Part shown: in pieces, positions 47,946-64,000 of the stretch
How the letters are laid out: each line of letters starts with the position of its first letter
Numbering within the stretch: position 1 is the stretch's first letter
NCBI RefSeq assembly: GCF_021556455.1
Contig: NZ_JAKGCV010000002.1
Span: 1-64,000 of the forward strand
Source: Streptomyces fuscigenes
GTDB taxonomy: Bacteria > Actinomycetota > Actinomycetes > Streptomycetales > Streptomycetaceae
Direction: 5' to 3'
DNA length: 64,000 nucleotides
The notes under the pieces: generated by a model
The model's database searches: none
Seen by the model: only the letters and a program-made list of their open reading frames with translations
Told to the model about the DNA's origin: nothing
Translations under genes and position numbers: made by a program

Positions 47946-48045
47946 ACTCCGACCGCGCGGTGGCCCGCCGACCACTCCCCCGCCGCGAGCGGCAGGCCAC
48001 CGCGCGGCCCCGCAAGGTACCACCAACGGCCCCACCAGGGAGACG

Positions 48046-48450
48046 ATGGACATGCCCACACTCATGCGTCCGCCACGTTGGGCAACTCTTGCGCTCGCCG
48101 CCTCGCTCCTCATCCTGGCAGGCTGCTCCGACGGCGGTGACACGGCAACCAGATCTCCCGCGACGCCGGCCACCGCGGCGCATGGCTCCGGCGGGGCCTC
48201 CTCGCACATCGCCATCAAGGACTTCATGTTCAGTCCTGTGTCCCTGACCGTGCGGCCGGGTGCCCGTGTGACGGTCGCCAATCAGGATCAGACACCCCAC
48301 ACCGTGACCTTCACCGATAGGGGCACATCGGATACCGGACGTATCTCCGGGGGCAAATCCGCTGGCTTCACTGCCCCAAAGAAGAGAGGTAGTTACTCCT
48401 ACATCTGCGATATTCACCAGTACATGAAGGGAACCCTCGTGGTCCGCTGA
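48046..48450 (+). CDS. cupredoxin lipoprotein (plastocyanin/azurin-like)
   Basis: A 134-residue protein. The N-terminal leader ends LASLLILAGC-like (here ASLLILAGC), giving a lipid-anchored protein. The copper fold shows FMFSPVSLTVRPGARVTVAN, TPHTVTF with the first His, and SYICDIHQYMKGTLVV with the Cys, His and Met ligands. It probably carries electrons or copper outside the membrane. AGGGAGACG precedes the ATG. It follows the ferritin-like genes on the same strand. Confidence 0.85.
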   Translation: MDMPTLMRPPRWATLALAASLLILAGCSDGGDTATRSPATPATAAHGSGGASSHIAIKDFMFSPVSLTVRPGARVTVANQDQTPHTVTFTDRGTSDTGRISGGKSAGFTAPKKRGSYSYICDIHQYMKGTLVVR

Positions 48451-48797
48451 GCACGAAGGTCCCCAACTCCGCCGACGACGAGACCTGGAAACAAGGCAGG
48501 ACCATGCCCCGAACGGAGACGGCAGAGCACCCTTGTACCGGCCCCGAGATTCTGCGTTCTCATCGGCATCGATCCCACCAGCACCCGGCTGCGACGGTGA
48601 GGGAGCCACCCCACGCCGTCGTCGCCCCTGATGGCCAAGTCGTCGGATCAGTACAGGATCGAGAGCAGAGGAGACCGGCGGCCGTCCGAAACGGCAAAGC
48701 GCCGAGGGCGGCCTACACCCTGCGATCGCGACAGAGCTGCCTTCGACGGCCCAGGTCATGGCCCGGTCGCGTTGCTGCTGGGACGGAGCTTTGGACG
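48451..48797. other. convergent intergenic region
   Basis: Lies between the ends of the cupredoxin and anti-sigma genes. No coding frame or strong hairpin recognised. Confidence 0.4.
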
Positions 48798-49565
48798 TCA
48801 GGCGGGGACCTTGAGAATACTGAGGGGATCGCTGGTGGGTTGGGGCGAGCCGCCGGTCGGCTCGACGGTGATGCCGACGGCCGTGGCACCTTTGAGCTGA
48901 CCTTGCAAAACCTGCGCCTGGTGACCGGCTCCGGGCAGCAGTCCGGCGGGGCGAAATTGTCCCGCTTTGGAGTACCAGAGTTCGTAGACCTGGTGGCCGG
49001 TCAACTGGGGAAGGTTCGAGGCAATGAACGCGGCCTGACCGTGGGTGCGGGAGGCGACGACGCTCGCGTGCGCCCCGTCTGCGAGTTTTGCCGTGCTGAT
49101 CGTCGCATCCGGGGCCGCCAGGACACCGGTGAGGGCGTCGGTCTTCGCATGTGCCTCGGCGACCTGGCCCTGCGCGTCCTCAGCGAGTGTGTGCTGCCAA
49201 CTCGCGACGCCGCCCAGAGCAACCGCTGCGGCCACAGACGGCGCCAGAGCGAGCTTGAACACCCGTTGGCGGAAGCGATGACGGCGCATCACAGAGGCGG
49301 CCGATCGATCCCGTCGTTCCTCGGACACCACGTGATCCTGACGTACCTCGGTAATCTGCTGAAGTACTCGGCTGCGCAGCTCCGGGGGCGGGGTCTGTGA
49401 TTCGACAGCTGTACCGAGCTGTACGGCTCTCCCGGTAAGGTCCTCGACCTCACGACGGCACTGCGGACAGCTCGCCAGGTGGTTTTCGAAAGCGGCTTCT
49501 TCCTCGGGCGGCAGAGCATGCAGCACGTAGGCACCGACGTCGAGGTGAGGGTCGACTTCGTTCAT
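48798..49565 (-). CDS. RskA-type anti-sigma factor
   Basis: A 255-residue membrane protein. The N-terminal zinc-binding anti-sigma domain is HLDVGAYVLHALPPEEEAAF, followed by NHLASCPQCRREV with the HxxxCxxC metal site. A single membrane span lies at about residues 110-130, and the C-terminal extracytoplasmic RskA domain includes HQVYELWYSKAGQFRPAG. Such proteins hold a SigK-type sigma factor at the membrane until proteolysis. Its ATG overlaps the sigma gene stop (ATGA). The convergent ferritin-like and cupredoxin genes are possible members of the regulon. Confidence 0.9.
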   Translation of the reverse strand: MNEVDPHLDVGAYVLHALPPEEEAAFENHLASCPQCRREVEDLTGRAVQLGTAVESQTPPPELRSRVLQQITEVRQDHVVSEERRDRSAASVMRRHRFRQRVFKLALAPSVAAAVALGGVASWQHTLAEDAQGQVAEAHAKTDALTGVLAAPDATISTAKLADGAHASVVASRTHGQAAFIASNLPQLTGHQVYELWYSKAGQFRPAGLLPGAGHQAQVLQGQLKGATAVGITVEPTGGSPQPTSDPLSILKVPA

Positions 49566-50170
49566 GTCCGGGCCTCCAGACAATCACGCAGATGGCGCAG
49601 TCCTTGCCGCAATCGCGATTTGATCGTGCCCGTAGGCGCTGCCAGGGAATGAGCGACCTCGGCATAGGTCAGGCCCTCGTAGTAGGCCAGCATCAGTGGC
49701 ACGCGCAGCTGCTCTGTCAGCTCGGCCACACAACGAAAGACCAGACGGTGCTCCTCTCGCACCTCCACCTCTTCGCCGACGGTGTCGAAAGGCCGCTCCT
49801 GCTCGCAGGCCACACTGCGCAGCTCCCGGGCCCTTGCCGCGACGGCGGTGCGTACGCGGTCCACGGCGCGGCGATGCGCCAGGGTGAGCACCAGGCTTCG
49901 CGCTGCACCCCTCTCCGGATCAAATCTGTCCGCGGTACGCCAGACCTCCACCATCACTTCCTGGGTCACCTCCTCCGCTTGAGCCCGGTCCCGCAGCACC
50001 CGGAAAACCAAGCTCATCACCGGACCGGCGAAAGCGTCGTAAACACCCGCGAATGCCTCTGCGTCCCCGTTACCCACCCGGGTGAGCAGTGCGTTAACCC
50101 GGGCATCTTCTGGATCCCGTCGGCATGCATACGAGTCGCGGCCCGACTCCGCGTCGCTTCCACGATCCAT
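49562..50170 (-). CDS. ECF sigma factor, SigK-like
   Basis: A 202-residue sigma-70 family protein. Region 2 is FAGVYDAFAGPVMSLVFRVL, then AEEVTQEVMVEVWRTADRF; region 4 is LTEQLRVPLMLAYYEGLTYAEVA, then GTIKSRLRQGLRHLRDCL. The ATG at 50170 has GAGGAG five bases upstream and is preferred to a GTG two codons earlier. It is followed by its anti-sigma gene. The promoter region contains a perfect palindrome at 50294-50309. Confidence 0.9.
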   Translation of the reverse strand: MDRGSDAESGRDSYACRRDPEDARVNALLTRVGNGDAEAFAGVYDAFAGPVMSLVFRVLRDRAQAEEVTQEVMVEVWRTADRFDPERGAARSLVLTLAHRRAVDRVRTAVAARARELRSVACEQERPFDTVGEEVEVREEHRLVFRCVAELTEQLRVPLMLAYYEGLTYAEVAHSLAAPTGTIKSRLRQGLRHLRDCLEART

Positions 50171-50920
50171 CGCCACTCCTCAGTGCTCTGTTCGAGACTG
50201 GTGCCTCTCGGGGAGCAGCGCACGTGCTCAAGAGCCGTCTGCCTGACAAAATCACCTTTCTGGGGTTTCCGCAGATCAGGAGGAGTCGGAACGGGTTAAA
50301 TCTTTAACCTGTTGTTCGTAGCTGGAGTCCCTGAAGATGAAGATCGTCCCGGCTGCAGTACCTGTCCGCTCCTGGCCTGTGCTGGAGCGGCTCTCTTTCG
50401 GTCCAGCACGGCAGGCACCTGCCATGGCGCCGGCACGGTGCAGAACAACCACCAGTTCCTTGGAGAATTGCACACAGCGCCTGGGCGCGGTCAGGACGCC
50501 GATCGATCACTGACCACGCACAGTCACGCACAGTGCTGACCGAACCGTCGTCGAGAACGAAACATCCCCTCCCGGTAAGGCTATGAGCTGGCACATGCTC
50601 GTAGCGGGCCAGAACGCCGGGCCTGCTGCACGGAAACCTCGGTAGCTTGCGCGGACGACGACGGCCGCTGGAACCGGTTTCGCTGAGAGTTCGCGCACAC
50701 GGCATCCGTCCTCCTCGTGGCTCCGAACCATCTGTAGAGGCGGCCGCCGAACGGTCGCCGCACTCCGACGTGTATGAGGGGGATCCTCATGAACCCATGG
50801 CCGTTCCGCGCTACGTACTACTCGGCTTCGTCGTGATGCCGAGAAATACGGCCGTCGGAACTTGGATCAACCAACGTCACCGACATGCGTCCCCTCGGAA
50901 TTCATAGTGAAGAGCAGCCG
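50171..50920. other. divergent intergenic region, sigma factor to PPTase
   Basis: About 750 bases without a convincing gene. The only clear structure is the palindrome at 50294-50309; several frames are open but lack ribosome sites and family similarity. Confidence 0.4.
50294..50309. promoter_or_regulatory. palindrome upstream of sigma factor gene
   Basis: GGTTAAATCTTTAACC has perfect 7-base arms around a 2-base centre, about 125 bases upstream of the sigma gene and unusually AT-rich for this genome. It may be an operator or overlap a promoter. Confidence 0.4.
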
Positions 50921-51649
50921 ATGATGATGGAGCAGATCACCCCGCCCCAAGCCTCCGTGTCCGAAGCGTTCGGCGATCCGGCCGACGTGGGTCTCTTCGC
51001 GGAGGAAGAGGCAGTCGTTCGTGGTGCCGTGGATGCCAGGAGGCGGGAGTTCGCCACCGTTCGGTGGTGTGCTCGCAGAGCCCTCGCTGACCTTGGTGAG
51101 GATGCTGTCCCCGTGCTGCCGTGTGCGGATGGTGCGCCCGAGTGGCCGGGAACGCTCCTCGGCAGCCTTACGCACTGCAGCGGCTACCGAGCCGCGGTAG
51201 TGGGAAGGGCCACGGATTTCCTCATGCTCGGCATCGACGCGGAACCACATGCCCCGCTGCCAGAGGACACTCTCCCCCTCATCGCGCGGCCTGCTGAGCG
51301 CCGCCGTCTGCGTGCCCTTGCGGCAGTGGACTCTGCGGTCCATTGGGACCGTCTGCTGTTCTGCATGAAGGAGGCCGTCTTCAAGGCGTGGTGCCCGTTC
51401 AGCGGCCAGGAGCTCGACTTCGGCGACGCCGATTTCACGATCGACTCTCAGACTGGAACTTTCGCGGCCCGGGTCCTCTCCCCGCCCTACCTTACCGAGG
51501 GCCCCCGACGTGACAGCCTTTGCGGCCGATGGATGGTTTGTGACGGCTTGGCGCTTACTCTGATCGCCGTACCGGTCACCCAAGAGGCGGAACAGAAGGG
51601 GCGGATCAGCGCCGCACGGGAGCCGCACATTGCAAGAGGCGCAGCGTGA
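50921..51649 (+). CDS. 4'-phosphopantetheinyl transferase, Sfp/EntD type
   Basis: A 242-residue enzyme that moves phosphopantetheine from CoA to carrier-domain serines. The metal-binding and catalytic motifs are LGIDAEPH and FCMKEAVFKAW, with LTHCSGYRAAVV as the third family segment. It precedes the diaminopropionate-type synthetase operon by about 1.2 kb and presumably activates its two carrier domains and those of the 22-35 kb NRPS. The start at 50921 is the first of three successive ATGs; a start at 50885 is possible. Confidence 0.9.
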   Translation: MMMEQITPPQASVSEAFGDPADVGLFAEEEAVVRGAVDARRREFATVRWCARRALADLGEDAVPVLPCADGAPEWPGTLLGSLTHCSGYRAAVVGRATDFLMLGIDAEPHAPLPEDTLPLIARPAERRRLRALAAVDSAVHWDRLLFCMKEAVFKAWCPFSGQELDFGDADFTIDSQTGTFAARVLSPPYLTEGPRRDSLCGRWMVCDGLALTLIAVPVTQEAEQKGRISAAREPHIARGAA

Positions 51650-51884
51650 TCATCCATCTGGCGACCGACGACGTCGGCCGGCTGACGAGGACCAACAGCT
51701 ACGTCAGGGCACACGACCGATGACGCCGGATGACACCCGAGGACTGACCAGTCTCCGCATCACGAAATCGCCGGTGGCCCTCGAGCATCGGCTTCCGCCG
51801 CGCTGGATGACCGCACGGATGACCGGTTCTTTCCCGGTTCGCATGTGCAGCCATGAACGCTGAGCCAACCGCTTTCCCATCGGC

Positions 51885-52289
51885 TCAGCCGAGCGCGGTC
51901 GCGTCAAAGGCGACGTGGACGGTCTTGCCACCGATGGCAGGAACCACAGTCAGGTTTCCGCCGAGTTTCGCGATCAGGATCATGCCGTAACCGCCCCATT
52001 CCCCTGGATGGCTGCTCGGCTCGGGAAGGCTCTCGCTCTGGTCTTTCACCGCGATGTCAAGGCGTCCGCACCGGTCGATAAGGGTCAGGACGCAGGGGCC
52101 ACGGCTATGCCGCACCGCATTGGTCACCAGTTCCGAGACGATCATTTCCGCGTCAGCGATCCGAGCGGAATCTGTTTCGCGGGCAACCAGCCACCGACTC
52201 ACGATGTGCCGGGCGACGGCCGGACTGTGCAAGCCGTACGGCAGGGCGACATGGCGGTCGCAAGTGGATTCGGTCGAGGTGGTCGGCAT
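51885..52289 (-). CDS. RsbW-like ATP-binding regulatory protein
   Basis: A 134-residue GHKL ATPase. The N box is SELVTNAVRHSRGP and the G2-like segment is WGGYGMILIAKLGG, with AVKDQSESLP as the G1 position. It is a single-domain anti-sigma-type kinase of the class abundant in Streptomyces. No STAS gene is adjacent. It is convergent with the PPTase across about 235 bases. Confidence 0.78.
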   Translation of the reverse strand: MPTTSTESTCDRHVALPYGLHSPAVARHIVSRWLVARETDSARIADAEMIVSELVTNAVRHSRGPCVLTLIDRCGRLDIAVKDQSESLPEPSSHPGEWGGYGMILIAKLGGNLTVVPAIGGKTVHVAFDATALG

Positions 52290-52895
52290 GACGACCTCCT
52301 GAGGAGATGGTACGTACGCGCTGTCTGTGAGGGATTCGTTGCCGAGATGACGGTGGATGAAGAGCCGTCACCACCGACCGGGCCTCTGGACGCAGGCGAG
52401 TCAGCGCTATCGCAAGGCAGATGAGGCCGGCGCAGAGGCGTGTGAAGCTACTGGCCGGAGGAACTCGCCACTACTCGCCGGACAGGGCGGCATACCAGCC
52501 GACTCTGCATCCTCTGTTCCGTGTTCGCTACCACAGACGGTGTGTGGATGAAATCTGCGCCAGCACTTCTTGCAGGGTCAGCTCGCGAAAGCCTCGTCCG
52601 CCCATGACGCCGAAACCACGGTGCTGGCACGTAGCTCGGGTTGCGAAGCTGGGGAAGATCGATCGTCGACACCAGGCGCGGGCTCGCTCTCCGAATACGC
52701 TGCAACGCTGGCATCTCGCCTTACCGACTGGCATCCACACCGTGATCACCGCGCTGCGGAACTCGCACATCGACGTCCCCCGGTGAAACACAGGCATGAT
52801 CAAATAAATCTGGAATTCATCTCATACCGCGCCCGCCTGGCGACGAATACCTGGCAAGAGAGCAGGACATCGGCGAGAGTGCAGGGAGAGTCCTC
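52290..52895. other. promoter region of the diaminopropionate-type operon
   Basis: About 600 bases between divergent genes without a recognisable protein. The last 110 bases are relatively AT-rich (ATCAAATAAATCTGGAATTC around 52799) and probably hold the operon promoter. Confidence 0.4.
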
Positions 52896-55433
52896 ATGAC
52901 GGCGCAGCGGTTCGAGACCGGCCCGCCGGCCATCACTCGGCAGACGCCACGCGCGGATCCCAGCGGTGCCGGTACGGACGACAGGCTCGCCCGGCTGCTC
53001 GCAGACGTGGCCCACCTGGATCAGGTGCCTCTCGACAGTCACTTCTTCAACGACCTGGGGGCCGATTCCCTGGTCATGGCACACTTCTGCGCCCGGGTGA
53101 GGAAGCGCCCGGATCTGCCGTCCATTTCCATGCGCGACATATACCGCCATCCGACCATCAACGGTCTGACAGAGGCACTCACGCCTCCAGCGCCGGCAGT
53201 CTCCGCTCAGGAGGATCGAGCCGCGACTCCCGTCGAGGACGATCACCGCGAGGATCACCGGCACGCTCCGACAGGACGGCCGCACTACATCCTCTGCGCC
53301 GTGCTGCAGCTGCTGAGTTTCCTCGGCTACGCATCCTTCCTCGCCTTCGTGACCACACGGGGCTACGACTGGGTCTCCGCGGGTACGGGACTCTTCGACC
53401 CCTACGTACGGTCCGTCGAGTTCGGTGCGTCGCTGCTCCTTGTTCTGTGTGCTCTGCCCGTGATCGCCAAGTGGTTGTTGGTCGGCAAATGGAAAACACA
53501 GCGTTTTCGCGTCTGGAGCCTCGCCTACGTCCGTTTCTGGCTCGTCAAAACACTCATCCGGTCCAGCCCGATGGTCCTGTTCGCCGGATCACCCCTCTAC
53601 CCGCTCTATCTCAGGGCGTTGGGTGCACGCATCGGGCGGGGCGTGACTCTCCTGTCTCGCAGCGTGCCTGTGTGCACGGACCTGCTGACGATCGGCGACA
53701 AGAGTATCGTCCGCAAGGACTCGCTGGTCAGCTGTTACCGTGCCCGTGACGGTGCCATCGAGACGGGCCCGGTCACCCTGGGCTCGAACGCGGTCGTCAG
53801 CGAAGCGACCGTGCTGGACATCGGGTCGTCCCTGGGCGACGACTCCCAGCTCGGTCACGCCTCCTCCCTCCACACCGGCCAGAGGGTCCCGGACGGCGAG
53901 CACTGGCACGGTTCTCCCGCCCAACCCGCGGATGCCGACTTCCAGAACGTGGAACCCGCCCGGTGCGGCACCGGACGGCGCGCGGTCAACGGCGTTGTCC
54001 TGCTGCTCATGTCGGTGCTCGTGTACGTGCCGCTGGCCGTCGGCTTTCTGGACGCCGTGCTTTCCCGGGTCCTGGAGGGCTCCGCACTGCTGCAGCAGGC
54101 ACAGGCCGCCCTCACCGGATGGATGCCTTACGTCGACGCACTGGTGATCACGGCCGTGACCTTCTCCGGTGCCGTACTCGCCGGCCTGGCAGCCGTGGCC
54201 ACCGTCCCACGACTGCTCAGCAAGTTCCTCACCCCGGGCCGCACGTATCCGCTCTTCGGATTCCACCACGGTCTCCACCGGGCCATCGTCCTGCTCGGCA
54301 ACCGAATCTCCCTCACCCGCCTGTTCGGCGACAGCTCCGGCATCGTGCACTACCTGCGCTGGCTCGGTTACGACCTCTCCCGAGTGGAGCAGACGGGTTC
54401 GAACTTCGGAACCCGGGTCAAGCAGGAGAGCCCCTTCGTGAGCGCGGTCGGTACCGGCACCATGGTGGCCGACGGCCTGTCCCTCCTCAACGCCGACTAC
54501 TCCAGCACTTCCTTCCGCCTGTCGCGGACATCGATCGGGGCGCACAACTTCCTCGGCAACCGAATTGCCTACCCTTCGCGAGGCAGGACCGGCGACAACT
54601 GCCTCCTGGCGACCAAGGTGATGGTCCCCGTCGACGGGCCGCTCCGCCAGGACGTGGGCCTGCTCGGGTCGCCGAGCTTCGAGATCCCGCGGACAGTACT
54701 GCGGGACAGCACTTTCGACGAGCTCAAAGAAGGGGAGAACCTGCGAGTTCGTCTCGGAGCGAAGAACCGTCACAACGTGCTTACCATGTTGTGGTATCTG
54801 TTCACGGGATGGCTGTTCTTCTTCTGCGTCACCGTCCTCTTCGGCTTTGCGGCGAGCCTGTACCCGCAGTGGGGAACTGGCGCCATCATCGCGGCGAACG
54901 TCGTCGTCCTGCCGTTCACACTCCTCTACTTCGTCCTGGTCGAGCGGGTCGTGACGATGCTGCATCCTCTGCGGCCTCTGTTCTGCTCGATCTACGACCG
55001 CCGATTCTGGCGCCGTGAGCGGTACTGGAAAGTCCCGTCCGAGACCTATCTGCAGGCGCTCAACGGCACACCGTTCAAGAACGTCGTGTTGCGGCTGCTC
55101 GGTTCTCGCATCGGTGCACGCGTCTTCGACGACGGCTGCAGCTTCACCGAACGCCCGATGGTTACCGTCGGGGACGACTGCACACTCAACGCGGGAAGTA
55201 TCGTGCAGTGCCACTCCCAGGAGGACGGCACGTTCAAGTCGGACCGCAGCGCGATCGGCTCCGACTGCACCCTCGGCGTGGGCGCACTCGTCCACTACGG
55301 CGTGACGATCGGTGACGGAGCAGCACTGGCGGCGGACTCCTTCCTGATGAAGGGCGAAACCGTCCCCGAGCACGCCCGCTGGACAGGCAATCCCGCACAC
55401 CCCGAACTCGACTGCACGGGAGGCGACCTGTGA
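52896..55433 (+). CDS. Pls-like membrane synthetase: carrier domain, six membrane spans, three LbH-type domains, no adenylation domain
   Basis: An 845-residue protein. Residues of about 20-95 are a carrier domain with the phosphopantetheine site LGADSLVMAHF. Then pairs of membrane segments (about 130-200, 365-455 and 630-700) alternate with three soluble domains rich in left-handed beta-helix hexapeptides (for example GPVTLGSNAVVSEATVLDIG and TVGDDCTLNAGSIVQ). This is the C-terminal plan of epsilon-poly-L-lysine synthetase Pls, whose tandem domains condense monomers at the membrane. Pls carries its own adenylation domain at the front; here that part is missing and an adenylation protein is encoded next. 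The ATG follows GGGAGAG. First gene of a five-gene operon. Confidence 0.87.
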   Translation: MTAQRFETGPPAITRQTPRADPSGAGTDDRLARLLADVAHLDQVPLDSHFFNDLGADSLVMAHFCARVRKRPDLPSISMRDIYRHPTINGLTEALTPPAPAVSAQEDRAATPVEDDHREDHRHAPTGRPHYILCAVLQLLSFLGYASFLAFVTTRGYDWVSAGTGLFDPYVRSVEFGASLLLVLCALPVIAKWLLVGKWKTQRFRVWSLAYVRFWLVKTLIRSSPMVLFAGSPLYPLYLRALGARIGRGVTLLSRSVPVCTDLLTIGDKSIVRKDSLVSCYRARDGAIETGPVTLGSNAVVSEATVLDIGSSLGDDSQLGHASSLHTGQRVPDGEHWHGSPAQPADADFQNVEPARCGTGRRAVNGVVLLLMSVLVYVPLAVGFLDAVLSRVLEGSALLQQAQAALTGWMPYVDALVITAVTFSGAVLAGLAAVATVPRLLSKFLTPGRTYPLFGFHHGLHRAIVLLGNRISLTRLFGDSSGIVHYLRWLGYDLSRVEQTGSNFGTRVKQESPFVSAVGTGTMVADGLSLLNADYSSTSFRLSRTSIGAHNFLGNRIAYPSRGRTGDNCLLATKVMVPVDGPLRQDVGLLGSPSFEIPRTVLRDSTFDELKEGENLRVRLGAKNRHNVLTMLWYLFTGWLFFFCVTVLFGFAASLYPQWGTGAIIAANVVVLPFTLLYFVLVERVVTMLHPLRPLFCSIYDRRFWRRERYWKVPSETYLQALNGTPFKNVVLRLLGSRIGARVFDDGCSFTERPMVTVGDDCTLNAGSIVQCHSQEDGTFKSDRSAIGSDCTLGVGALVHYGVTIGDGAALAADSFLMKGETVPEHARWTGNPAHPELDCTGGDL

Positions 55434-58258
55434 TGGCGCCCATCGCAAGCAGCGGACACAGCCCAGGACAAAGCGCCTCGTCCCATGACGGCTTCACTGC
55501 CGTACCGCGATGGTGCCATTCCCCCGTGCGCGGCACAGCGGAGCACATCATCTCCCTCCCCGACGGTGTCACCGCGGCCCTGCGCCGACGGGCCGGTGAA
55601 CTCGGCGTACCACTCACGGCCGTCTTCCTGGCCGCGCACGTGAAGGTGCTGGCCCTGCTCTCCGGAGATCCCCTCGTCCGCAGCGGAATCATGCCTCCGG
55701 GCCGCGACGGAACACTGTCCTTGGAGCTCACGGTCCATCCCGGAACCTGGCATGAACTGGTACTGGCCGTGCAGCAGGCCGGGCTGACCGCCCTACCTAC
55801 CTACGCCCCATCCGGCTCCACCCCCGACGTGGTGTTCGACGCATCCGGGCGCGAACCCGACCTCCCCGCCGAGGACTCCGTTCTCAGGATCTCGGCAGAA
55901 GGTCAAGACGGACGTTACGTCCTGCGGTTGCGTTACCGGACCGACGCACTGGACGCGGATTGCGCCGCCCGGATCGGCGGCTACCACCTCACGGCACTCG
56001 AACAGATTGCCTTCGCCGTGGACACTCCGCATGATCAGAGCACCTTGCTGTCCCCTGAGGAACTCCACTTCCAGCTCCACAAGCTCGCCGGACCGGACCG
56101 TGCGCTGCCGGACTCTCGCTTCCACGAACTCTTCGAAGAGCAAGCCCGCCGGCACCCGGACGCGATCGCCATCGTGTATGGAGGCCGGTCGTGGACGTAC
56201 CAGGACCTCGACCGACGAGCCAACCGGCTCGCACATGCCCTGCTCGACGAGGGCCTGTGTCCCGAGGATGCCGTCGCCGTGGTGACCGAGCGGGACCTGA
56301 GCTGGACAGCCGCCGTCCTCGCCGTACTCAAGGCAGGCGGCGCCTACCTGCCCATCGACCCCCAGTGCCCGCCCGAACGCCTGGCCACCATGCTCACCCG
56401 CGCCGGCTGTGCGCACGTCCTCACCGAGCCGCAATCCTCGACGAACCTGAAGGGGGCTCTTGCGGCTCTCCCCCGTGTCCGGCAGCTGCTCGTGCCGGAC
56501 CTCACCGAGCACCCCGGCAACGACACATCACCCAGCATCGAGACCCGAGCCGGCCAACTCGCCTACGTCTTCTTCACGTCCGGATCCACCGGCGAGCCCA
56601 AGGGCGCCATGTGTGAGCACGCGGGCCTGCTGAACCACCTCTTCGCGAAGATCGACGATCTGGGCATCGACGCGTACTCGGTCGTGGCGCAGACCGCGTC
56701 GCAGTGCTTCGACATCTCACTGTGGCAACTGCTCGCCCCGCTGATGACCGGCGGACGGACTGTGCTCGTCGAGCAGGAGGCGGTCCTCGATGCGGACCGG
56801 TTCCTGGACACGATCGTCGAGGGCCGCGTCACCGTCCTCCAGGTCGTGCCCTCGTACCTCGACGTCATCCTGACCACCCTCGAACACAGCTTTCGCGCCC
56901 TGCCCGACCTGCTGTGCGTCTCGGTCACCGGCGAGGCACTCAGGAACGAACTCGTGCAGCGCTGGTTCACGACCGGGCCCGGTATCCGCCTCGTCAACGC
57001 CTACGGACTGACGGAGACATCGGACGACACCAACCACGAGGTGATGGACCATCCGCCCCGCAGCGGCCGAGTCCCACTCGGTCGTCCCGTGAACAACGTC
57101 AGCGTCTACGTAGTCGATGATCACCTCGTGCCGGTCCCGCTCGGTGCCCCCGGCGCCCTCGTCTTCTCCGGGATCTGCGTCGGCCGCGGATATGTCAACG
57201 ACACCGAACGTACCCGACTCGCCTACCGGCCAGATCCCTACCGTCCGGAACAACGCCTCTTCCTCAGCGGTGACTTCGGGCGGTGGCTCCCCGACGGAAA
57301 GCTGGAATTTCTCGGCCGCCGGGACACACAGGTGAAAATACGCGGGTTCCGCGTCGAGATCGGCGAAATCGAGAACACGTTGCTGCGGGTCCCAGACGTC
57401 CGCGACGGCGCCGTCGTGGTGAACGGACCGGAGAGCCGCCGCCGGCTGACCGCATTCTGCACGAGCGGGAGCACGCTCACCGACAAGCACCTGCGCCGCC
57501 GACTCGGAGACCTGCTGCCCGCCTACATGATCCCGTCGACCTTCCACCAGTTGCACACCCTGCCGCTGACCTCCAACGGCAAGACCGACAGGAGCGCTCT
57601 GGCCACGCTCGCCGACAAACTGAGCACGGCCGACGACGCGCCCACGCACCACCGGACACCGACAGAGCATCGGCTCGCGGCAGCTTGGGCATCCGTACTC
57701 GACACGGCACCCGAGGAGATCGGCCCCGGCGACAACTTCTTCGACCTGGGGGGCACTTCTCTGTCGGCCGTGCGACTGGCCGTCCTTCTGGACAGGGCGA
57801 TCTGCCTCCGCGACCTGGCCGGCCATCCGACGCTGGCCGGCCTGGCCCGGTTGATGGACACCCGCACCGGCACAGCATCCGACGTCCTGCGGCCTCTGCT
57901 CGTCCCGAACGGACCTACGCAGGCAGCCGTGATCTGCTTCAACGACACCGACGGGACCCAGACAGATTTCCGGCCCCTGGCCGAAGCCCTGCGACGCTGC
58001 CGCAGCCGAAACGCCGACAAGGTGTCCGTACACGTCGCCCGGCAACCGGACGCCGCGCGCGTCGCCAGGGAGATCGCCCGGATCCACGCACCCTGGATTC
58101 TTCTCTGGGGCTACGGCTCCGGCAAGGGAACCGCCGAGGAGACGGCAACCGCCATGCAACAACAACAGACATACCCCAGCAGCTCACTCCTGTTCGCACA
58201 CTCTTGCGAAGAGGCCGCCGAGACCGCACTCCGCGCAGTCACCCCACCGGCTGAATGA
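55430..58258 (+). CDS. NRPS-like protein: partial C, A, T, degenerate TE-like tail
   Basis: A 942-residue protein. Residues of about 30-190 resemble only the C-terminal lobe of a condensation domain, with no HHxxxDG. The adenylation domain (about 200-720, YVFFTSGSTGEPKG) and carrier domain (about 740-800, FFDLGGTSLS) are complete. The tail, 825-942, begins like a thioesterase (AAVICFNDTDGTQTDFRPLAEAL), but the nucleophile elbow reads WGYGSGKG, so catalysis is doubtful. My reading of the pocket is D-I-W-Q-S-T-A-D-D-K; the acidic pair could hold a second amino group, fitting diaminopropionate. It overlaps the previous gene by four bases and probably charges its carrier domain or its own. Confidence 0.85.
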   Translation: MMAPIASSGHSPGQSASSHDGFTAVPRWCHSPVRGTAEHIISLPDGVTAALRRRAGELGVPLTAVFLAAHVKVLALLSGDPLVRSGIMPPGRDGTLSLELTVHPGTWHELVLAVQQAGLTALPTYAPSGSTPDVVFDASGREPDLPAEDSVLRISAEGQDGRYVLRLRYRTDALDADCAARIGGYHLTALEQIAFAVDTPHDQSTLLSPEELHFQLHKLAGPDRALPDSRFHELFEEQARRHPDAIAIVYGGRSWTYQDLDRRANRLAHALLDEGLCPEDAVAVVTERDLSWTAAVLAVLKAGGAYLPIDPQCPPERLATMLTRAGCAHVLTEPQSSTNLKGALAALPRVRQLLVPDLTEHPGNDTSPSIETRAGQLAYVFFTSGSTGEPKGAMCEHAGLLNHLFAKIDDLGIDAYSVVAQTASQCFDISLWQLLAPLMTGGRTVLVEQEAVLDADRFLDTIVEGRVTVLQVVPSYLDVILTTLEHSFRALPDLLCVSVTGEALRNELVQRWFTTGPGIRLVNAYGLTETSDDTNHEVMDHPPRSGRVPLGRPVNNVSVYVVDDHLVPVPLGAPGALVFSGICVGRGYVNDTERTRLAYRPDPYRPEQRLFLSGDFGRWLPDGKLEFLGRRDTQVKIRGFRVEIGEIENTLLRVPDVRDGAVVVNGPESRRRLTAFCTSGSTLTDKHLRRRLGDLLPAYMIPSTFHQLHTLPLTSNGKTDRSALATLADKLSTADDAPTHHRTPTEHRLAAAWASVLDTAPEEIGPGDNFFDLGGTSLSAVRLAVLLDRAICLRDLAGHPTLAGLARLMDTRTGTASDVLRPLLVPNGPTQAAVICFNDTDGTQTDFRPLAEALRRCRSRNADKVSVHVARQPDAARVAREIARIHAPWILLWGYGSGKGTAEETATAMQQQQTYPSSSLLFAHSCEEAAETALRAVTPPAE

Positions 58259-58298
58259 AGAAGCCCAACCCGAACAACCGCATCTCGAGGAGAGCGCC

Positions 58299-59351
58299 AT
58301 GCTGTCCCAACTGTTCCGCAAGCACACCGATCCCCCTACAGCACCACCTGCAGCCGAAGCGCCCGCCGTCTCGGCCGTCGCCCCCCGCCCTTCCGACGAA
58401 CTTCCGGTCATGGAGGCATCCGAGAGCGCCGACCCGGCAGCCTGGACGGGAGAGCGGGGCGAGACGCTGCACGACCTCGTCACCGCCCACGGCGCGGTCA
58501 GGATCCACGGCCTCGGCCTGCACAACGTCACCGACGTCCAAGCGGTCCTCCATCGGCTGACGGACCACCCCGTAACCGAACGAGAGGCATTCGCCGCCCG
58601 CGACCGCTACATGCAAGGCGTCTACTCCTCCTCGGCCTGGCCCGCCAACCAACCGATGTGCATGCACCATGAGCTGAGCTACACCACGCAGTGCCCGAGC
58701 CTGCTGCTCTTCGCCTGCCTCAGCCCGCCCACCGTCGGCGGCGCCACCGCCACTGCCGACGCGACCGCCGTGCTACGAGCACTGCCCACCGACCTTGTCG
58801 ACCGCTTCCAGCAGGAAGGATGGCTGCTCACCCGCACCTACAACAACGAGATCGGCGCCACGCTGAGCGATTCGTTCGGCACCGACGACCACGACGCCGT
58901 CGAGGCGTACTGCCGCGCCAACGCCGTCGACTGGTCCTGGCAACCAGACGGGTCACTGCGCACCCGGCAGCACCGGAGTGCCGTGGTGCGCCACCCGGTC
59001 TCCGGCCGGCCCTGCTGGTTCAACCAGATCGCGTTCCTCAACGAGTGGACCATGGCCCCGGACGTCCGGGAGTTCCTGGTCGAGGAGTACGGTCCCGACG
59101 ACCTCCCCTTCAACACCCGCTACGGCAACGGCGATCCCGTGCCGCCGGACGTCGTCGAACAGATCAACAACACTTACCGGGAGCACACCGTAAGCGCACC
59201 CTGGCAGGCCGGGGACCTGATGATCGTAGACAACATCCGCACCGCACACAGCCGGGAGGCGTACGAGGGACCCCGCAACGTCGTGGTCGCCATGGCGGAC
59301 GCCGTGCTTCCCGACCGCCTCGCGCCGCCGATCAGGAGGGCAGCCGCATGA
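58299..59351 (+). CDS. Fe(II)/2-oxoglutarate dioxygenase, SyrP/TauD-type
   Basis: A 350-residue oxygenase. The iron-binding HxE is MCMHHELSYT, the distal His and the 2-oxoglutarate Arg are in TAHSREAYEGPRNVVVAMAD. The central FNQIAFLNEW and FACLSPPTVGGATATAD are typical of SyrP-like beta-hydroxylases found in peptide clusters, some of which act on carrier-bound residues. It probably hydroxylates diaminopropionate, free or carrier-bound. A Pro/Ala-rich N-terminal 40 residues is not conserved. GAGGAGAGCGCC precedes the ATG. It couples to sbnB by a four-base overlap. Confidence 0.87.
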   Translation: MLSQLFRKHTDPPTAPPAAEAPAVSAVAPRPSDELPVMEASESADPAAWTGERGETLHDLVTAHGAVRIHGLGLHNVTDVQAVLHRLTDHPVTEREAFAARDRYMQGVYSSSAWPANQPMCMHHELSYTTQCPSLLLFACLSPPTVGGATATADATAVLRALPTDLVDRFQQEGWLLTRTYNNEIGATLSDSFGTDDHDAVEAYCRANAVDWSWQPDGSLRTRQHRSAVVRHPVSGRPCWFNQIAFLNEWTMAPDVREFLVEEYGPDDLPFNTRYGNGDPVPPDVVEQINNTYREHTVSAPWQAGDLMIVDNIRTAHSREAYEGPRNVVVAMADAVLPDRLAPPIRRAAA

Positions 59352-60421
59352 CCACCGCACGTACCGACGCGGGGGCAGGCATGGACACTCAGCTCGTGCC
59401 GTCCTTCGCCGTCATCCCGGGACACCAGGTCAAGGAAGTCCTGGACGGCCGTGAGAAGTCCGTGGTGGACGTGGTCGAGGAGACATACAGCAGGCATGCG
59501 GCCGGCCGCTCCGTCAACCCGCCGTCTACCTTCCTGCGGTTCCCCGACCGGGCGACGTCACGGATCATCGCGCTCCCCGCCTCGCTCGGCGCGCACGGCG
59601 ACGAGAGCGGAGTGGACGGCCTCAAGTGGATCTCCAGCTTTCCGAGCAACGTGACTTCGGGCATCCCGAGGGCATCCGCCGTGCTCATCCTCAACGACCA
59701 GGCCACCGGCTACCCCTTCGCGTGCATGGAGAGTTCGATCATCAGCGCCGTAAGGACAGCCGCATCGGCCGCCGCGGCCGCCGACCGGCTCACCCGGAGC
59801 CGAACGCGGCCCGCACGGCTCGGATTCGTCGGCGCCGGACTGATCGCCCGCTACATCCACACCTACCTGGAGGGCACCGGCTGGTCCTTCGACAGCATCG
59901 GCGTGCACGACGTGTCCGCCGACAGCGCCGCCGGCTTCCGCACCTATCTGGAGCAGGCCGGGGACGTCGGACGCGTCACCGTGCACCGAACTGCCGAAGA
60001 CCTGATCCGCGGCAGCGACCTGATCGTCTTCGCCACCGTCGCAGATCGGCCCCACATCAGCGACACGTCGTGGTTCCGGCACAACCCTGTCGTCCTGCAT
60101 GTGTCACTCCGCGATCTCGCCCCGGAAGTGCTGCTCGCCTCCACCAACATCGTCGACGACGTCGAGCACTGCCTCAGGGCCTCCACCTCACCCCACCTCA
60201 CCGAGAGCCTGACCGGCAACCGCGACTTCCTCCTCGGCACCCTCGACGACGTGACAGCCGGCCGGGTGACAGTGCCCCCCGACCGGCCCGCGGTGTTCTC
60301 ACCGTTCGGACTGGGCGTCCTGGACCTCGCCGTCGGCAAATACGTCTACGACGAGGTGTCCCGCTCCGGTGAGCTCCGCACCATCGACAACTTCTTCCAC
60401 GAACTGCGCCGCTACGGTTGA
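59348..60421 (+). CDS. sbnB: 2,3-diaminopropionate biosynthesis dehydrogenase SbnB
   Basis: A 357-residue ornithine-cyclodeaminase/mu-crystallin family protein. The NAD motif is LGFVGAGLIARYIHTYL, with GLKWISSFPSNVTSGIPRASAV and HVSLRDLAPEVLL as other family segments. SbnB oxidises the N-(1-amino-1-carboxyethyl-2)-glutamate intermediate to release L-2,3-diaminopropionate and 2-oxoglutarate. Pairing with an SbnA homologue in the next gene makes this specific call stronger than a generic cyclodeaminase. The ATG overlaps the oxygenase stop. Confidence 0.92.
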   Translation: MTTARTDAGAGMDTQLVPSFAVIPGHQVKEVLDGREKSVVDVVEETYSRHAAGRSVNPPSTFLRFPDRATSRIIALPASLGAHGDESGVDGLKWISSFPSNVTSGIPRASAVLILNDQATGYPFACMESSIISAVRTAASAAAAADRLTRSRTRPARLGFVGAGLIARYIHTYLEGTGWSFDSIGVHDVSADSAAGFRTYLEQAGDVGRVTVHRTAEDLIRGSDLIVFATVADRPHISDTSWFRHNPVVLHVSLRDLAPEVLLASTNIVDDVEHCLRASTSPHLTESLTGNRDFLLGTLDDVTAGRVTVPPDRPAVFSPFGLGVLDLAVGKYVYDEVSRSGELRTIDNFFHELRRYG

Positions 60422-60464
60422 GGGCTGCGACCCTCCCCCACCCCGGCGAGGTCAGGAGACTCCC

Positions 60465-61439
60465 GTGCCAGTCATCACCACCCCTCAGTCCTTCAACGAG
60501 GAGGACCTGTACGTCGACCTCGCACCGATGTCGGGCCACCGGCTCCTCCTGAAATGCGAGGGCTTCAACTTCGCCGGCTCGATCAAGCTCAAAGCCGCGA
60601 CCGAGATGGTCGAGTCGGCCGAACGGACCGGGACCCTGACACCGGACTCCATCCTTGTGGAATCCTCCTCGGGCAACCTCGGTGTGGCCCTGAGCATGAT
60701 CGCCGCAAGCAAGGGCTACCGCTTCGTCTGCGTGACGGACTCCCGCTGCAACCTGGCCACCCGTCTGATGATGGAGGCTCTGGGCAGCGAGGTCCACGTC
60801 ATCTCCGACCACCGCGATGCCAGCAGCCCGCTGGCCGCACGACTGGAGTACGTGCGCCGTCTGAGCGCAAGGAATGATCGCTACGTGTGGCTCAGCCAGT
60901 ACACCAACGCCGACAACTGGAAGGCACACTACCGACGAACGGCGCCCGCGATTGCCCGCGCCTTCCCGCGGCTCGACGTCCTCTTCGTCGGCGCGGGCAC
61001 CACAGGTACACTCATGGGCTGCGCCCGATGGTTCCGGGACTGGCACCGGCCGGTACGCATCGTCGCGGTGGACAGTATCGGCTCGGCAATCTTCGGCGAC
61101 CCACCGGGGCGCAGAATGATCCCCGGTCTGGGCATGAGCATGCGGCCCCCGCTGCTCGACGACGCCTACGTGGACGAGGTGGTGCGTGTCCACGAGATCG
61201 ACACCATCCGCATGTGCCACGAGCTTGCCAAGTGCGGGTTCCTGTTCGGCGGCTCCACCGGGACCGTGGTCAGCGGCGCCGTCGACTGGCTCGGCCAGCA
61301 CACCACACAAGACCTCACCACGGTAGCCATCGCCCCAGACCTCGGCGAGCGCTATCTCGACACGATCTATCACAACAACTGGGTGGAGGACATCTACGGT
61401 GACAGCGCGCTCGTTTCGCAACCGCACATCGGGAATTGA
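60465..61439 (+). CDS. sbnA: 2,3-diaminopropionate biosynthesis enzyme SbnA
   Basis: A 324-residue PLP enzyme of the cysteine-synthase fold. The Schiff-base Lys is in FNFAGSIKLKAA, the substrate loop is VESSSGNLGVALS, and the phosphate-binding loop is FVGAGTTGTLMG. SbnA joins O-phosphoserine with glutamate to form the SbnB substrate. The GTG at 60465 has AGGAG about 7 bases upstream. It is the last gene of the operon. Confidence 0.92.
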   Translation: MPVITTPQSFNEEDLYVDLAPMSGHRLLLKCEGFNFAGSIKLKAATEMVESAERTGTLTPDSILVESSSGNLGVALSMIAASKGYRFVCVTDSRCNLATRLMMEALGSEVHVISDHRDASSPLAARLEYVRRLSARNDRYVWLSQYTNADNWKAHYRRTAPAIARAFPRLDVLFVGAGTTGTLMGCARWFRDWHRPVRIVAVDSIGSAIFGDPPGRRMIPGLGMSMRPPLLDDAYVDEVVRVHEIDTIRMCHELAKCGFLFGGSTGTVVSGAVDWLGQHTTQDLTTVAIAPDLGERYLDTIYHNNWVEDIYGDSALVSQPHIGN

Positions 61440-61774
61440 ACGCCACCGAATGGCCGGTCAATCAGCGGAGTCCGCCGCACAGTCCAGCATGTCGGGATCT
61501 CCTTGACGCGCCCTTATTTGCCAGCCCGCGTTCGGGGGCACCGGCCCGCTGAACGCGCCCCCCCTGCTGGCTGCCGCAGCCGGTGCGCACCCGCAGGAAG
61601 CGAACCAGGTGACGGTGGCACCCGGTCCACCACCCCGCCCCGCGTCGACAGCGCTGCCGTGGGGAACTCGACGGCGAGCAGGGGCTACACGGCACGAACT
61701 CCAGGGGCTGGTGGGACCCCCACGCATGCCCGCCGTCTGACCGGAGTGAAGTAGTCCTCCTGGTGACCTCTCGG
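61440..61774. other. gene-free interval after sbnA
   Basis: No family-like frame. It ends in the strong hairpin at 61775-61804. Confidence 0.4.
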
Positions 61775-61804
61775 GCGGGGGCGCCACACCTGTGGCGCCC
61801 CCGC
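61775..61804. terminator. strong terminator hairpin
   Basis: GCGGGGGCGCCACA and TGTGGCGCCCCCGC form a perfect 14-base stem with only two bases between. It lies between the sbnA end and the end of the convergent membrane-protein gene and can stop both transcripts. Confidence 0.8.
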
Positions 61805-61882
61805 CTCCGGGCACTGCGCGCGCTCCGTACGCGTTGGGACATGCATGTGCCTGCGGCACAGGGCAGCTCGGAGTGCAGCACC

Positions 61883-62521
61883 TCAGGCAGGTCCGCTGCC
61901 CCGCGAGGGCGGGCCCGGGGAGGGCGCCCGGTCCGGAGGTGGGGGCGGGCTGGGGAGGAGCAGTGCCAGGGAATCCGCGATGTCCGGCGTGAGCGGTCCG
62001 GCAGGCTCCAGTCCGAACTGGCGTGTGAGGTCCCCGATGTGCAAGCGGGTGGCGGCCTCCAGCAGCAGGGCATACGAGTCGGTGGCAGCGCGCATGCGCG
62101 TGCGGCCCGCGGCAGCCACCGCAACCGCGACAAGTACCGCAGGCCACCACCACACGGCCGGCACGAGATAGAGCAGGGCCCACGCGCTCAGCGTGCTGGC
62201 CCGGGTGAGGGCCTCGCGGCTGCTGGTGATCTCGGTACGGCTCTGCTCGGGGAGTGTCAGCCACAGGTAGGGCCAGACCGCGGCCAGGTCGATATGGAGG
62301 TCACGCTCGGCGCGCGCTGAGACGGCGTGAACACGGTCACCGCACCAGGTGGGCCGCGCGGGCTTTTCCGTGGCGATCCGGGCCATCCGCTGCCGGGCGG
62401 CATACCGGGGTTCGGGATCCGCCCGGCGCCCGCGGGCACGCAGCAGGGCCGCCTGCTCCCGGTGGGCCTGGTAGGCGAGGGCGGCGGCTTCCCATACAGC
62501 ACCGCGGGATGCCGCCCACAC
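61883..62521 (-). pseudogene. membrane protein gene truncated at its 5' end
   Basis: The readable part encodes a charged N-terminal segment (AYQAHREQAALLRARGRR), then two hydrophobic stretches around LSAWALLYLVPAVWWWPAVLVAVAVAAAG, and a C-terminal soluble tail. I do not recognise a named family. Upstream of about 62505 the sequence becomes the tail of a transposase on the opposite strand, so the original start is lost; the GTG at 62521 lies within the transposase remnant. It may still be translated, but the protein is probably shortened. Confidence 0.5.
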
Positions 62522-62795
62522 CCAGCTCCGCCTCGCCCGGCCCCTCGCCGAGGACTTCCGTCGCCCGTCGGAACGACCTGTAGAACCCCGCCGCCTCACC
62601 CCCGCGCGAGTGCGGCGGGGGTTTCGCAACGTCCGCGCGATCACCATCCACCCCGCGGCCGCGCCAAAACCGTCCCGACCAGGTCCCGGACGGCCTCCCG
62701 GCTCGAAAAACAAGCAACGGGCCAGACGCCACAACGTTGGCAAGACCGTCAAACGCGCCGAATCGATCAAGGAACACCAAGCCCAGCGAGGTTAA
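62512..62795 (+). pseudogene. C-terminal remnant of a transposase
   Basis: A continuous frame reads AAHTQLRLARPLAEDFRR, then RVRRGFRNVRAITIHPAA and GRPPGSKNKQRARRHNVGKT before a TAA at 62793-62795. This is the C-terminal end of a DDE transposase group common in Streptomyces that finishes in a GRPPGSKN-type basic tail. The catalytic domain is missing. Its left boundary coincides with the truncated membrane-protein gene. Confidence 0.65.
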
Positions 62796-63288
62796 ACGCC
62801 AGGCTTAGTCGAGATCACCGGTGATCGCCGGCACCGGGCCGGTGACCGCCTCGCGGGAGGTGACCGTCATGAAAGACATCGTCACGTTTCACTCCTAGGT
62901 GGCGATCCGGACAGCGCAACGGCCCCGGTGGGTCCACCACGAGGACGGGCGGCCCATTCGGCTGCACATGGCCGACTCCTTCGTCATCTCCCGGCACGAC
63001 GACAGCCACGCCTGCAAGCGCGTCGTGACCCCGACTCGGAGCAGGTGCAGGACGCCGACGGCGTCCTCGAACGGAGCACCCACCAGCACCCCACGATCCA
63101 GGTGAGGCCCTGGTCGGAGATGAGCGGTGAATCCAGGTCCCGGCCCGTCGCGTGGACGAAGACGGCGGCGGCGCGTTCGTTGAGACTGGCCCAGTCCGGA
63201 TCGAACGCTCGGCCACGTCGAGTGCCGCCGACGGCTGCCTCACCAGCGTCTCGCTGATCTACGGCGCGGGGACTACGAGGAGGCCACG
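62796..63288. other. interval without recognisable genes
   Basis: Several frames are open but none is family-like or has a good start. Probably decayed sequence next to the transposase relic. Confidence 0.4.
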
Positions 63289-63447
63289 TGCTGATCCTGT
63301 CCGGCAACCACCGCACCGCCGCGGCGGTCGAAGTGGGCCTGCCCGAGATCGACTGCATGCTCATCGACGACCCGCAGCAGATCGAGACGACGCTGTCCGG
63401 GGTGAAGAGCGAGGCCGAGGCTTTCCATGATCCCGCGCACAGATGAC
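63289..63447 (+). pseudogene. ParB-like nuclease-domain fragment
   Basis: A short frame beginning around GTG 63289 encodes LILSGNHRTAAAVEVGLPEI, then DCMLIDDPQQIE, resembling the core of ParB/sulfiredoxin-like domains where SGNHR carries the nucleotide-binding residues. GAGGAGG lies just upstream. The N-terminal part of the domain is absent, so I read it as a remnant of a mobile-element or plasmid-type gene. Confidence 0.35.
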
Positions 63448-63660
63448 GACGATGTCGACCGCGCGCCGGCACCGATGGATACGAAAATGTCAGAATCAGC
63501 ACGCGGGGTCGGGCGCGCTGATTGGATGCTGCATTGCAAGAGTGCGGTGAGGGACGGGACTTGTGGATCCTCGCTCACCACTGATCACGAAGCGGGACGA
63601 CCGCAAAGGATCTTGTTCAGCATTGCTCGCCAGGTAGGACCAGAGGAGGAAATCCGCTTC

Positions 63661-64000
63661 ATGAAGACCCTGGGTAGATCAATCGCTCTCATTGCTGTGG
63701 CTTCGGCAGCAACTGCCGGAGCTCTTGTGTCACCTGCCAGCGCGGCACCTCGGTCGGCTCCGTCAGCCCACCCAGCCGTTTCGGCGGCGGCACCGCTCGC
63801 CCCCTACAACGGCGCCTGCGGCGCCGGATACGCCTCGATCGACCATCTGGACCTCAAATGGCTCGGCACCACGTGGCTGACCTTCAACAGCTCCACCGGC
63901 AAGAACTGTGTCGTCACCGTTCGTGCCGAACCAGGCATCAAGATCTACATGGGGGCCGCCGTACAGCTGGCCGGCAACTCCGCCTCCACCTCGGCCGACT
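63661..64000 (+). CDS. SapA-like secreted protein (3' end outside window)
   Basis: The first 113 residues are visible. A signal peptide (MKTLGRSIALIAVASAATAG ending SPASAA) is followed by APYNGACGAGYASIDHLDLK, then TWLTFNSSTGKNCVVTVRAEPG, which matches the pattern of the Streptomyces spore-associated protein A family. The conserved Cys residues suggest a disulfide. AGGAGGAAATCCGCTTC precedes the ATG. It is transcribed toward the right edge and cut there. Confidence 0.8.
   Translation, partial: MKTLGRSIALIAVASAATAGALVSPASAAPRSAPSAHPAVSAAAPLAPYNGACGAGYASIDHLDLKWLGTTWLTFNSSTGKNCVVTVRAEPGIKIYMGAAVQLAGNSASTSAD

Follow-up and report, generated by a model that had tools for sequence, protein, structure and literature searches.

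A candidate split polylysine-synthetase-type system with a separate adenylation protein in a Streptomyces diaminopropionate operon

How does a membrane synthetase of the polylysine type receive activated monomers when its own chain holds no adenylation (A) domain? The question is raised by an operon of Streptomyces fuscigenes (6.37 Mb draft genome, assembly GCF_021556455.1) at 52896-61439 of the 64,000-nucleotide stretch analysed here (positions 1 to 64,000 of contig NZ_JAKGCV010000002.1; ‘the window’). Its five forward-strand genes overlap or lie close together, with shared ends at 55430-55433 (genes 1 and 2) and 59348-59351 (genes 3 and 4), and encode, in order, an A-less synthetase of the Pls/PosA type, a multidomain protein that carries an A domain (P2), a TauD-type oxygenase, and SbnB and SbnA for the biosynthesis of 2,3-diaminopropionate (Dap) (Table 1). 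We think it fairly probable that this is a split, trans-loaded machine of the polylysine-synthetase type, in which P2 would stand in for an A domain that the Pls chain has lost, activating Dap and passing it to the A-less Pls, and the oxygenase would modify a carrier-bound unit. An earlier note on this DNA had proposed a split Pls-type machine with Dap genes. That combination stands, as a conserved unit that occurs once as a single open frame, but P2 turned out not to be simply the A domain of Pls.

The assignment of gene 1 rests on a match to TIGR02353 (‘Pls/PosA family’) of 706.7 bits across residues 134-834, against a curated cut-off of 423.1; it is the one match to this family above the cut-off in the draft genome, and the closest relatives of gene 1 that bear a name are from Streptomyces. 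A single carrier (T) domain directly precedes this region, as in Pls/PosA synthetases, and its serine S58 is invariant in all 47 aligned relatives. Pfam found neither an AMP-binding domain nor PF00668 in gene 1, which is therefore without a normal condensation domain. A profile of 14 in-chain A regions did not match gene 1 either; that profile drew in part on two-carrier sequences (L059, L068 and L076 among them), and its last part therefore matches carrier domains. No A-domain remnant was present upstream among open frames of the window of at least 90 amino acids.

A structural model of gene 1 built from the 47 sequences (mean pLDDT 83.4, pTM 0.84) places the T domain first, followed by pairs of long helices (128-196, 359-442 and 614-689) between three beta-rich domains, and six Kyte–Doolittle hydrophobic segments coincide with these paired helices. 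The predicted architecture is therefore one of membrane helices around three tandem soluble domains, an arrangement also reported for Pls and PDAPs, the poly-Dap synthetase (PMC4668381). In VIA-align comparisons, the first and third soluble domains matched maltose/galactoside acetyltransferases of the left-handed beta-helix (LbH) fold, with Z scores of 13.7-14.2 and root-mean-square deviations of 3.0-3.6 A across 141-149 residues in the ten best matches. Residues H773, S774, E776 and D777 of the third domain are identical in 47 of 47 sequences, whereas the first two domains carry other residues there; in the alignment the four third-domain residues sit near histidines of the acetyltransferases of known structure, and H773 may have a catalytic role. 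The earlier note had described gene 1 as a Pls-like membrane protein with a carrier and tandem LbH-type domains but no A domain, and these results bear it out. It had also asked whether a non-Pls family might fit better. We rejected a transporter or a plain acyltransferase, as none of the other families listed scores above 40 bits, far below the 706.7 bits of TIGR02353, although two of the soluble domains nonetheless have the LbH acetyltransferase fold.

The company that gene 1 keeps is conserved. A scan of genome contigs retained 80 of 117 relatives as loci, from hosts that include Streptomyces, Amycolatopsis, Kutzneria, Actinomadura, Pseudonocardia, Actinomycetospora and two metagenome-assembled genomes of Acidobacteria. 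The full set of A-less Pls, P2, TauD, SbnB and SbnA is complete in 55 loci, and another seven have all five genes but with an A-like region inside the frame of Pls. Pls stands alone in seven loci, partial sets (some cut by contig ends) make up eight, and an A-containing Pls without the other operon genes is found in three, with contig ends nearby in L037 and L055. Some genes counted as absent fall at contig ends, for example in L037 (the start of P2 is cut), L055 (a 3.7 kb contig), L023, L024 and L084. SbnA and SbnB occur together in 63 of the 67 loci that carry P2. Among 98 frames of Pls relatives, 78 have one carrier domain, 13 have two (L055, L112, L052, L059, L061, L065, L068, L076, L078-L080, L083 and L113), two have three (L103 and L132) and five have none, a class that includes cut or broken genes.

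Across Streptomyces, where the earlier note had suggested that layouts be compared, 107 of 295 genomes (the genome of the window included) carry gene 1 at E <= 1e-150, in 131 places; at 112 of them a P2 match (E <= 1e-170) is no more than 6 kb away. The search scored about three gene 1 and about two P2 candidates per genome, so that the counts are lower bounds; the two collections overlap, and their counts are not independent. The contigs of L038 and L136, for instance, are equally long (33,378), as are that of L020 and G254:C4 (645,759). Five Pls places have frames of 1388-1412 amino acids, and P2 is within 6 kb of none of them; the only one of these that was read (L102) has an intact A domain with AMP-binding_C and no match to P2, TauD, SbnA or SbnB in 18 kb.

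One genome joins the parts directly. In L144, a single-contig genome of 8.6 Mb, one open frame of 2,327 codons holds the Pls, P2 and TauD parts in operon order: T, Pls (57% identity), half-condensation, A (62%), T and TauD (53%). P2 and TauD also share one frame in L116, L119 and L127, stretches in which no Pls was found. Sharing a frame is no proof of a single protein, although it is consistent with parts that would act together.

P2 is larger than the A–T protein of the earlier note. Pfam matches are to PF00501 (AMP-binding, 275.9 bits), PF13193 (AMP-binding_C) and PF00550 (PP-binding), which brings the operon to the two carriers that had been claimed, one in each of genes 1 and 2, and these domains are flanked by a half-condensation domain and a degenerate thioesterase. 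The half-condensation domain is clear only in homologues and not in the window protein itself: in L031 and L042 the N terminus corresponds to PF00668 positions of about 190-343, below the curated cut-off. Because the N terminus matches positions of the condensation C-lobe only, the N-lobe is missing. At the C terminus, homologues have a partial PF00975 and the tail of the window protein is without the serine. Among the tails of 67 P2 proteins, 23 have an intact GxSxG, 41 are too short for a thioesterase, one (L006) lacks the motif and two could not be judged; the thioesterase is optional. We therefore set aside the idea that it generally transfers units between carriers. The T-domain serine is kept in 65 of the 67 proteins. 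The nine A-domain pocket residues, DIWQSTADD, are identical in the window and 59 loci and differ at one or two positions in eight more P2 proteins, two further rows being too short to compare; the tenth (Lys) was assumed, not extracted.

The three remaining genes had been recognised in the earlier note as an oxygenase and as SbnA and SbnB homologues, and these assignments hold. SbnA and SbnB both score above curated cut-offs, placing Dap biosynthesis genes within the operon, and no second SbnB match in the draft genome exceeds the cut-off. The oxygenase has TauD metal motifs of the HxE/D...H type (HHELSY and AHSREAY), both of which are found in 62 of 67 proteins from the loci.

If P2 now supplies the A domain, what became of the one in the Pls chain? 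Six loci with P2 (L059, L068, L076, L078, L079 and L080) have a Pfam AMP-binding match but no AMP-binding_C in the Pls frame. In these remnants the P-loop (A3) is degraded, reading for example SS-ASGRPEG where intact relatives have SGSTGRPKG, and the A8 hinge has been lost as well; in L052 the in-chain A region is broken across two frames. The in-chain A regions beside P2, in seven of the 80 loci, look dead as judged from these motifs. By comparison, A3 and A8 are retained in L048, L061 (first Pls), L102, L114 and L115, with AMP-binding_C seen in L048, L061 and L102, and neither L048 nor L102 has P2 in its stretch. The in-chain A region of L037 is degraded too, and its P2 starts at the contig end. 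The remnant pockets of L059, L068 and L076 read DFECLCVV[TS]; Phe at pocket position 2 marks poly-Dap and poly-Dab (2,4-diaminobutyrate) synthetases (PMC10522769). We had considered loci with two working A domains, and two-unit copolymers made by them; both ideas were dropped, as the in-chain A domains of L059, L068 and L076 have no AMP-binding_C and have degraded A3 and A8 motifs. Separately, L061 has two distinct Pls genes, one of full length whose A domain looks intact, the other A-less with two carriers. In L115, ectB adjoins the full-length Pls, and in the plasmid loci L111, L114 and L115 Pls lies near metal and redox genes (cation diffusion facilitators, CopC, DUF305 and multicopper oxidase).

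The simplest reading of these remnants is that P2 took over and the in-chain A domain then decayed and was lost. A Pls tree rooted on the epsilon-polylysine-like rows L105-L108 has A-containing enzymes at its base and at least four changes of A state, with L059, L068, L076 and L037 labelled as A-bearing; 47 of its 85 inner branches are starred and its backbone support is weak. The direction of loss would therefore rest more on the degraded A regions than on the tree.

In the mechanism that we propose, SbnA and SbnB, assigned by curated family, would make L-Dap. The A domain of P2 would activate Dap and load the T domain of P2, that of the A-less Pls, or both. The oxygenase would then oxidise the carrier-bound unit, a placement that we favour because of its metal motifs and the frames shared by P2 and TauD, and the membrane-embedded LbH domains of Pls would transfer the unit from the Pls T domain to the growing chain. 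Judged by the family of the catalytic part, the product would be an isopeptide-linked oligomer or polymer of Dap or oxidised Dap. The syringomycin system, in which SyrB1, SyrB2 and SyrC feed an A-less module of SyrE, follows a similar logic.

P2 also has a life apart from Pls. In the 295 Streptomyces genomes, 30 of 142 P2 places have no Pls within 6 kb. Thirteen such Pls-less P2–TauD loci (L116-L128) were read: ten have P2, TauD, SbnB and SbnA, and in L122, L126 and L127 P2 and TauD come with no more than a distant SbnA-like enzyme (~29%). The nine pocket residues are the same as in the window in 12 of the 13. The neighbours of these cassettes include non-ribosomal peptide synthetase (NRPS) genes, a tryptophan halogenase (L121) and a phosphoglycerate dehydrogenase (L125). 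Because the cassette occurs without Pls, P2 is more than an A domain cut from Pls; that origin we also rejected because the P2 pocket differs from those of in-chain A domains and because in-chain A remnants coexist with P2. The independent cassette, with its unchanged pocket and, at several loci, adjoining NRPS genes, lends something to the alternative that P2 and TauD supply a cap: one oxidised Dap unit that Pls would join to one or a few free Dap, to give a short peptide and no polymer. That P2 retains a T domain, when gene 1 already provides one, points the same way. We nevertheless regard the cap as unlikely, since P2 has the only intact A domain of the operon, even where an in-chain remnant survives, and therefore P2 feeds Pls or Pls has no donor.

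The pocket and the neighbouring genes bear on the question of which amino acid P2 activates. Its pocket differs from those of in-chain Pls A domains, with Asp at position 1 but no Glu at position 3. DVWQMIGDDK, a code that PMC12283262 groups with Dab-activating domains and describes as recognising a beta-OH modification, agrees with it at five of nine positions (D1, W3, Q4, D8 and D9); a literature search for the P2 code string itself returned nothing relevant. This partial agreement favours a view in which P2 would activate 2,4-diaminobutyrate, 2,3-diaminobutyrate or serine, TauD would beta-hydroxylate that unit, and Dap would be an acceptor or co-monomer only. So does the setting of the P2 relatives in L130 and L133, which stand beside kinase, PLP-dependent enzyme and lyase genes in place of sbnAB. 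We take these genes to be a possible route to 2,3-diaminobutyrate. The operon has no ectB-type gene, however, and the near-constant pairing of SbnA and SbnB with P2 argues for Dap; we judge this second alternative improbable. The pocket and the operon together suggest that the P2 substrate is a vicinal diamino acid, Dap in this case, and pocket residues alone do not decide L-Dap specificity.

Comparison with known systems places the operon near, but not within, the described polymer synthetases. The poly-Dap synthetase of Streptomyces albulus PD-1 (PDAPs, PMC4668381) resembles gene 1 in its C-terminal region, which is of the Pls type and sets three tandem soluble domains among membrane helices, and its system resembles the operon in drawing Dap from a cysteine-synthase/ornithine-cyclodeaminase pair. 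It differs in having an in-chain A domain and Dap genes elsewhere, and the passages available describe no oxygenase or second NRPS. The epsilon-polylysine synthetase Pls and the delta-poly-L-ornithine synthetase PosA (PMC10522769) share the TIGR02353 part and the T domain with gene 1, but are single A-T-Pls chains with an Asp1/Glu3 pocket, whereas in the window the A domain is on another protein and has another pocket. Gene 1 thus has the family match, the preceding carrier and the helix and soluble-domain layout of Pls/PosA, and lacks the in-chain A domain, and the pocket of P2 is not of the Asp1/Glu3 kind. Because the in-chain A domain is missing, we class the system as an A-less, trans-loaded variant and not as a standard Pls or PDAP synthetase. 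Its catalytic part would work like a Pls synthetase, and the whole appears to be a variant of the polylysine-synthetase type for which the open-licence literature searched gave no description.

Loading in trans has precedents. In capreomycin biosynthesis, CmnA-A1 loads L-Dap in trans onto the A-less CmnI, seen as +86 Da by mass (PMC12400406). CmnI is like gene 1 in lacking an A domain, in having an N-terminal T domain and, as would hold for gene 1, in being fed by an A domain on a separate protein, but has a normal condensation domain where gene 1 has the Pls membrane region; trans loading of gene 1 is our proposal. The stand-alone A domain ORF19 of the streptothricin system extends an isopeptide chain on the carrier of another protein (PMC9606270), which is like the role proposed for P2; unlike P2, ORF19 is said to mediate chain growth itself, and Pls is not mentioned with it in the passages available. 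A Dap polymer from a Streptomyces is cited in PMC9606270 and PMC10522769, with no gene given there; it shares the idea of a Dap polymer, and a link to this operon would be speculation. Literature searches on a split Pls with Dap genes, on NAPAA with Dap and on trans A domains turned up no description of such a system; being confined to open-licence papers, they are weak evidence of absence.

The dapdiamide locus shares other parts of the operon. There, DdaD tethers N-acyl Dap for epoxidation by DdaC (PMC12451424), and sbnA, sbnB, an A–T protein and a TauD oxygenase stand together. In Pantoea vagans pPag2 the sbnA, sbnB, TauD and A–T genes lie in a row, with 41%, 43%, 32% and 29% identity to the window proteins; unlike the operon, that stretch has no Pls and includes acyl-Dap ligase genes, and the identities are low. 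At 29%, P2 is not supported as a DdaD orthologue. A comparable role here, with P2 tethering N-acylated Dap, TauD oxidising the acyl group and Pls merely transferring or exporting the product, draws on that side-by-side arrangement but is very improbable, as no DdaF- or DdaG-like acyl-Dap ligase is present among the 25 frames scanned around the operon (44322 to 63999) and the DdaD pocket reads differently from that of P2 (in an alignment with a gap).

Several observations weigh against the split, trans-loaded machine that we favour. The P2 pocket is without the Glu at position 3 that is described as conserved in polymer synthetases (PMC10522769), and P2 is a separate A-domain lineage whose cassette is also found without Pls. 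Leaving aside the class of 1388-1412 amino acids, there are 126 Pls places in Streptomyces, and for 14 of them no P2 was found within 6 kb. Ten of the 14 were read: five (L137, L139-L141 and L143) have no A domain or other operon gene in the stretch, L138 has SbnA and SbnB only, P2 is cut by a contig end in L142, and L134-L136 have a stand-alone A protein. No evident A partner lies near the orphan A-less Pls genes. The plasmid loci L113 and L132 have a degraded in-chain A domain, yet no P2 in the fetched stretch. A beta-hydroxylated free Dap unit would be an unstable hemiaminal unless its beta-amine were already acylated; the oxygenase may therefore work on a unit already bound to the chain, carry out a desaturation or have its target elsewhere. 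Finally, no product is assigned to the operon in the open-licence literature searched.

The surroundings of the operon include candidate partners. An Sfp-type phosphopantetheinyl transferase upstream is a plausible activator of both T domains; no BLAST relative of it was found at the 80 loci, and another ACPS-type gene family (one representative scanned) lies close to the operon in six of them. A sigma factor encoded on the reverse strand is a probable regulator, and together with its anti-sigma factor may control the operon; scans for promoters and terminators gave no signal above shuffled sequences. Elsewhere in the window are two big overlapping NRPS frames of 2484 and 2019 amino acids with two A domains each, the first with a terminal thioesterase (22417-35675, reverse strand), a pair of neighbouring ferritin-like (PF13668) genes (46330-47945, forward strand) and, between the phosphopantetheinyl transferase and gene 1, a protein with a histidine-kinase-like ATPase domain (51885-52289, reverse strand).

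Table 1. Features of the operon and its surroundings, with the fused frame of L144 (aa, amino acids)
Feature	Position	Strand	Evidence or remark
RskA-type anti-sigma factor	48798..49583	-	PF10099, zf-HC2; homologue in 15/80 loci, 36-65% identity
Sigma factor	49562..50176	-	Sigma70 r2/r4; homologue in 15/80 loci, 47-70% identity
Sfp-type phosphopantetheinyl transferase	50885..51649	+	PF17837 and PF01648
Gene 1, A-less Pls/PosA-type membrane synthetase, 845 aa	52896..55433	+	One carrier domain, then six hydrophobic helices and three beta-rich domains
T domain of gene 1, aa 29-95	52980..53180	+	PF00550 5.8e-10; serine S58
LbH domain C1, about aa 203-350	53502..53945	+	Z 14.2 to maltose transacetylase 2ic7, model residues 194-351
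LbH-like domain C2, about aa 450-598	54243..54689	+	Strand pattern of the model; aligned with C1 and C3; no structural match row of its own
LbH domain C3, about aa 695-836	54978..55403	+	Z 13.9 to E. coli maltose acetyltransferase 1ocx, model residues 688-839
Gene 2, P2: half-condensation, A, T, degenerate thioesterase	55430..58258	+	942 aa when read from GTG; ATG 55433 is an alternative start
A domain of P2	56132..57583	+	Pocket residues DIWQSTADD; NGKTDR motif present
T domain of P2 (GGTSL)	57671..57853	+	PF00550 8.7e-12
Gene 3, TauD-type Fe(II)/2-oxoglutarate oxygenase, 350 aa	58299..59351	+	PF02668 140.5 bits, 1.2e-40
Gene 4, SbnB, Dap biosynthesis	59348..60421	+	TIGR03944 399.6 bits, cut-off 326.9
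Gene 5, SbnA, Dap biosynthesis	60369..61439	+	TIGR03945 364.7 bits, cut-off 349.95; true start uncertain, probably inside the frame
Fused frame of L144	3858-10838 of reverse complement; G144:C1 about 26214-32981	-	

The variety of loci may say something about the family as a whole. In three Streptomyces genomes (L134, L135 and L136), an A-less Pls and TauD are accompanied by a stand-alone A protein of 531-585 amino acids, with no carrier domain by Pfam in the two of the three that were scanned. We put forward, tentatively and with more doubt than confidence, that the membrane region of Pls works autonomously as a polymer synthase and has an exchangeable loader, be it an in-chain A domain, the A–T–TauD set of P2 or a stand-alone A protein with TauD, and that the in-chain loader decayed after takeover in trans. 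The literature consulted describes few natural homopolymers of diamino acids, and loading and extension by Pls-type enzymes are poorly known. Were the exchangeable-loader reading true, about one third of the sampled Streptomyces species would make undescribed, oxygenase-modified polymers of vicinal diamino acids. With a natural split version, one could assay loading, tailoring and polymerisation on separate proteins, and loader swaps such as these suggest ways to feed other monomers to these enzymes.

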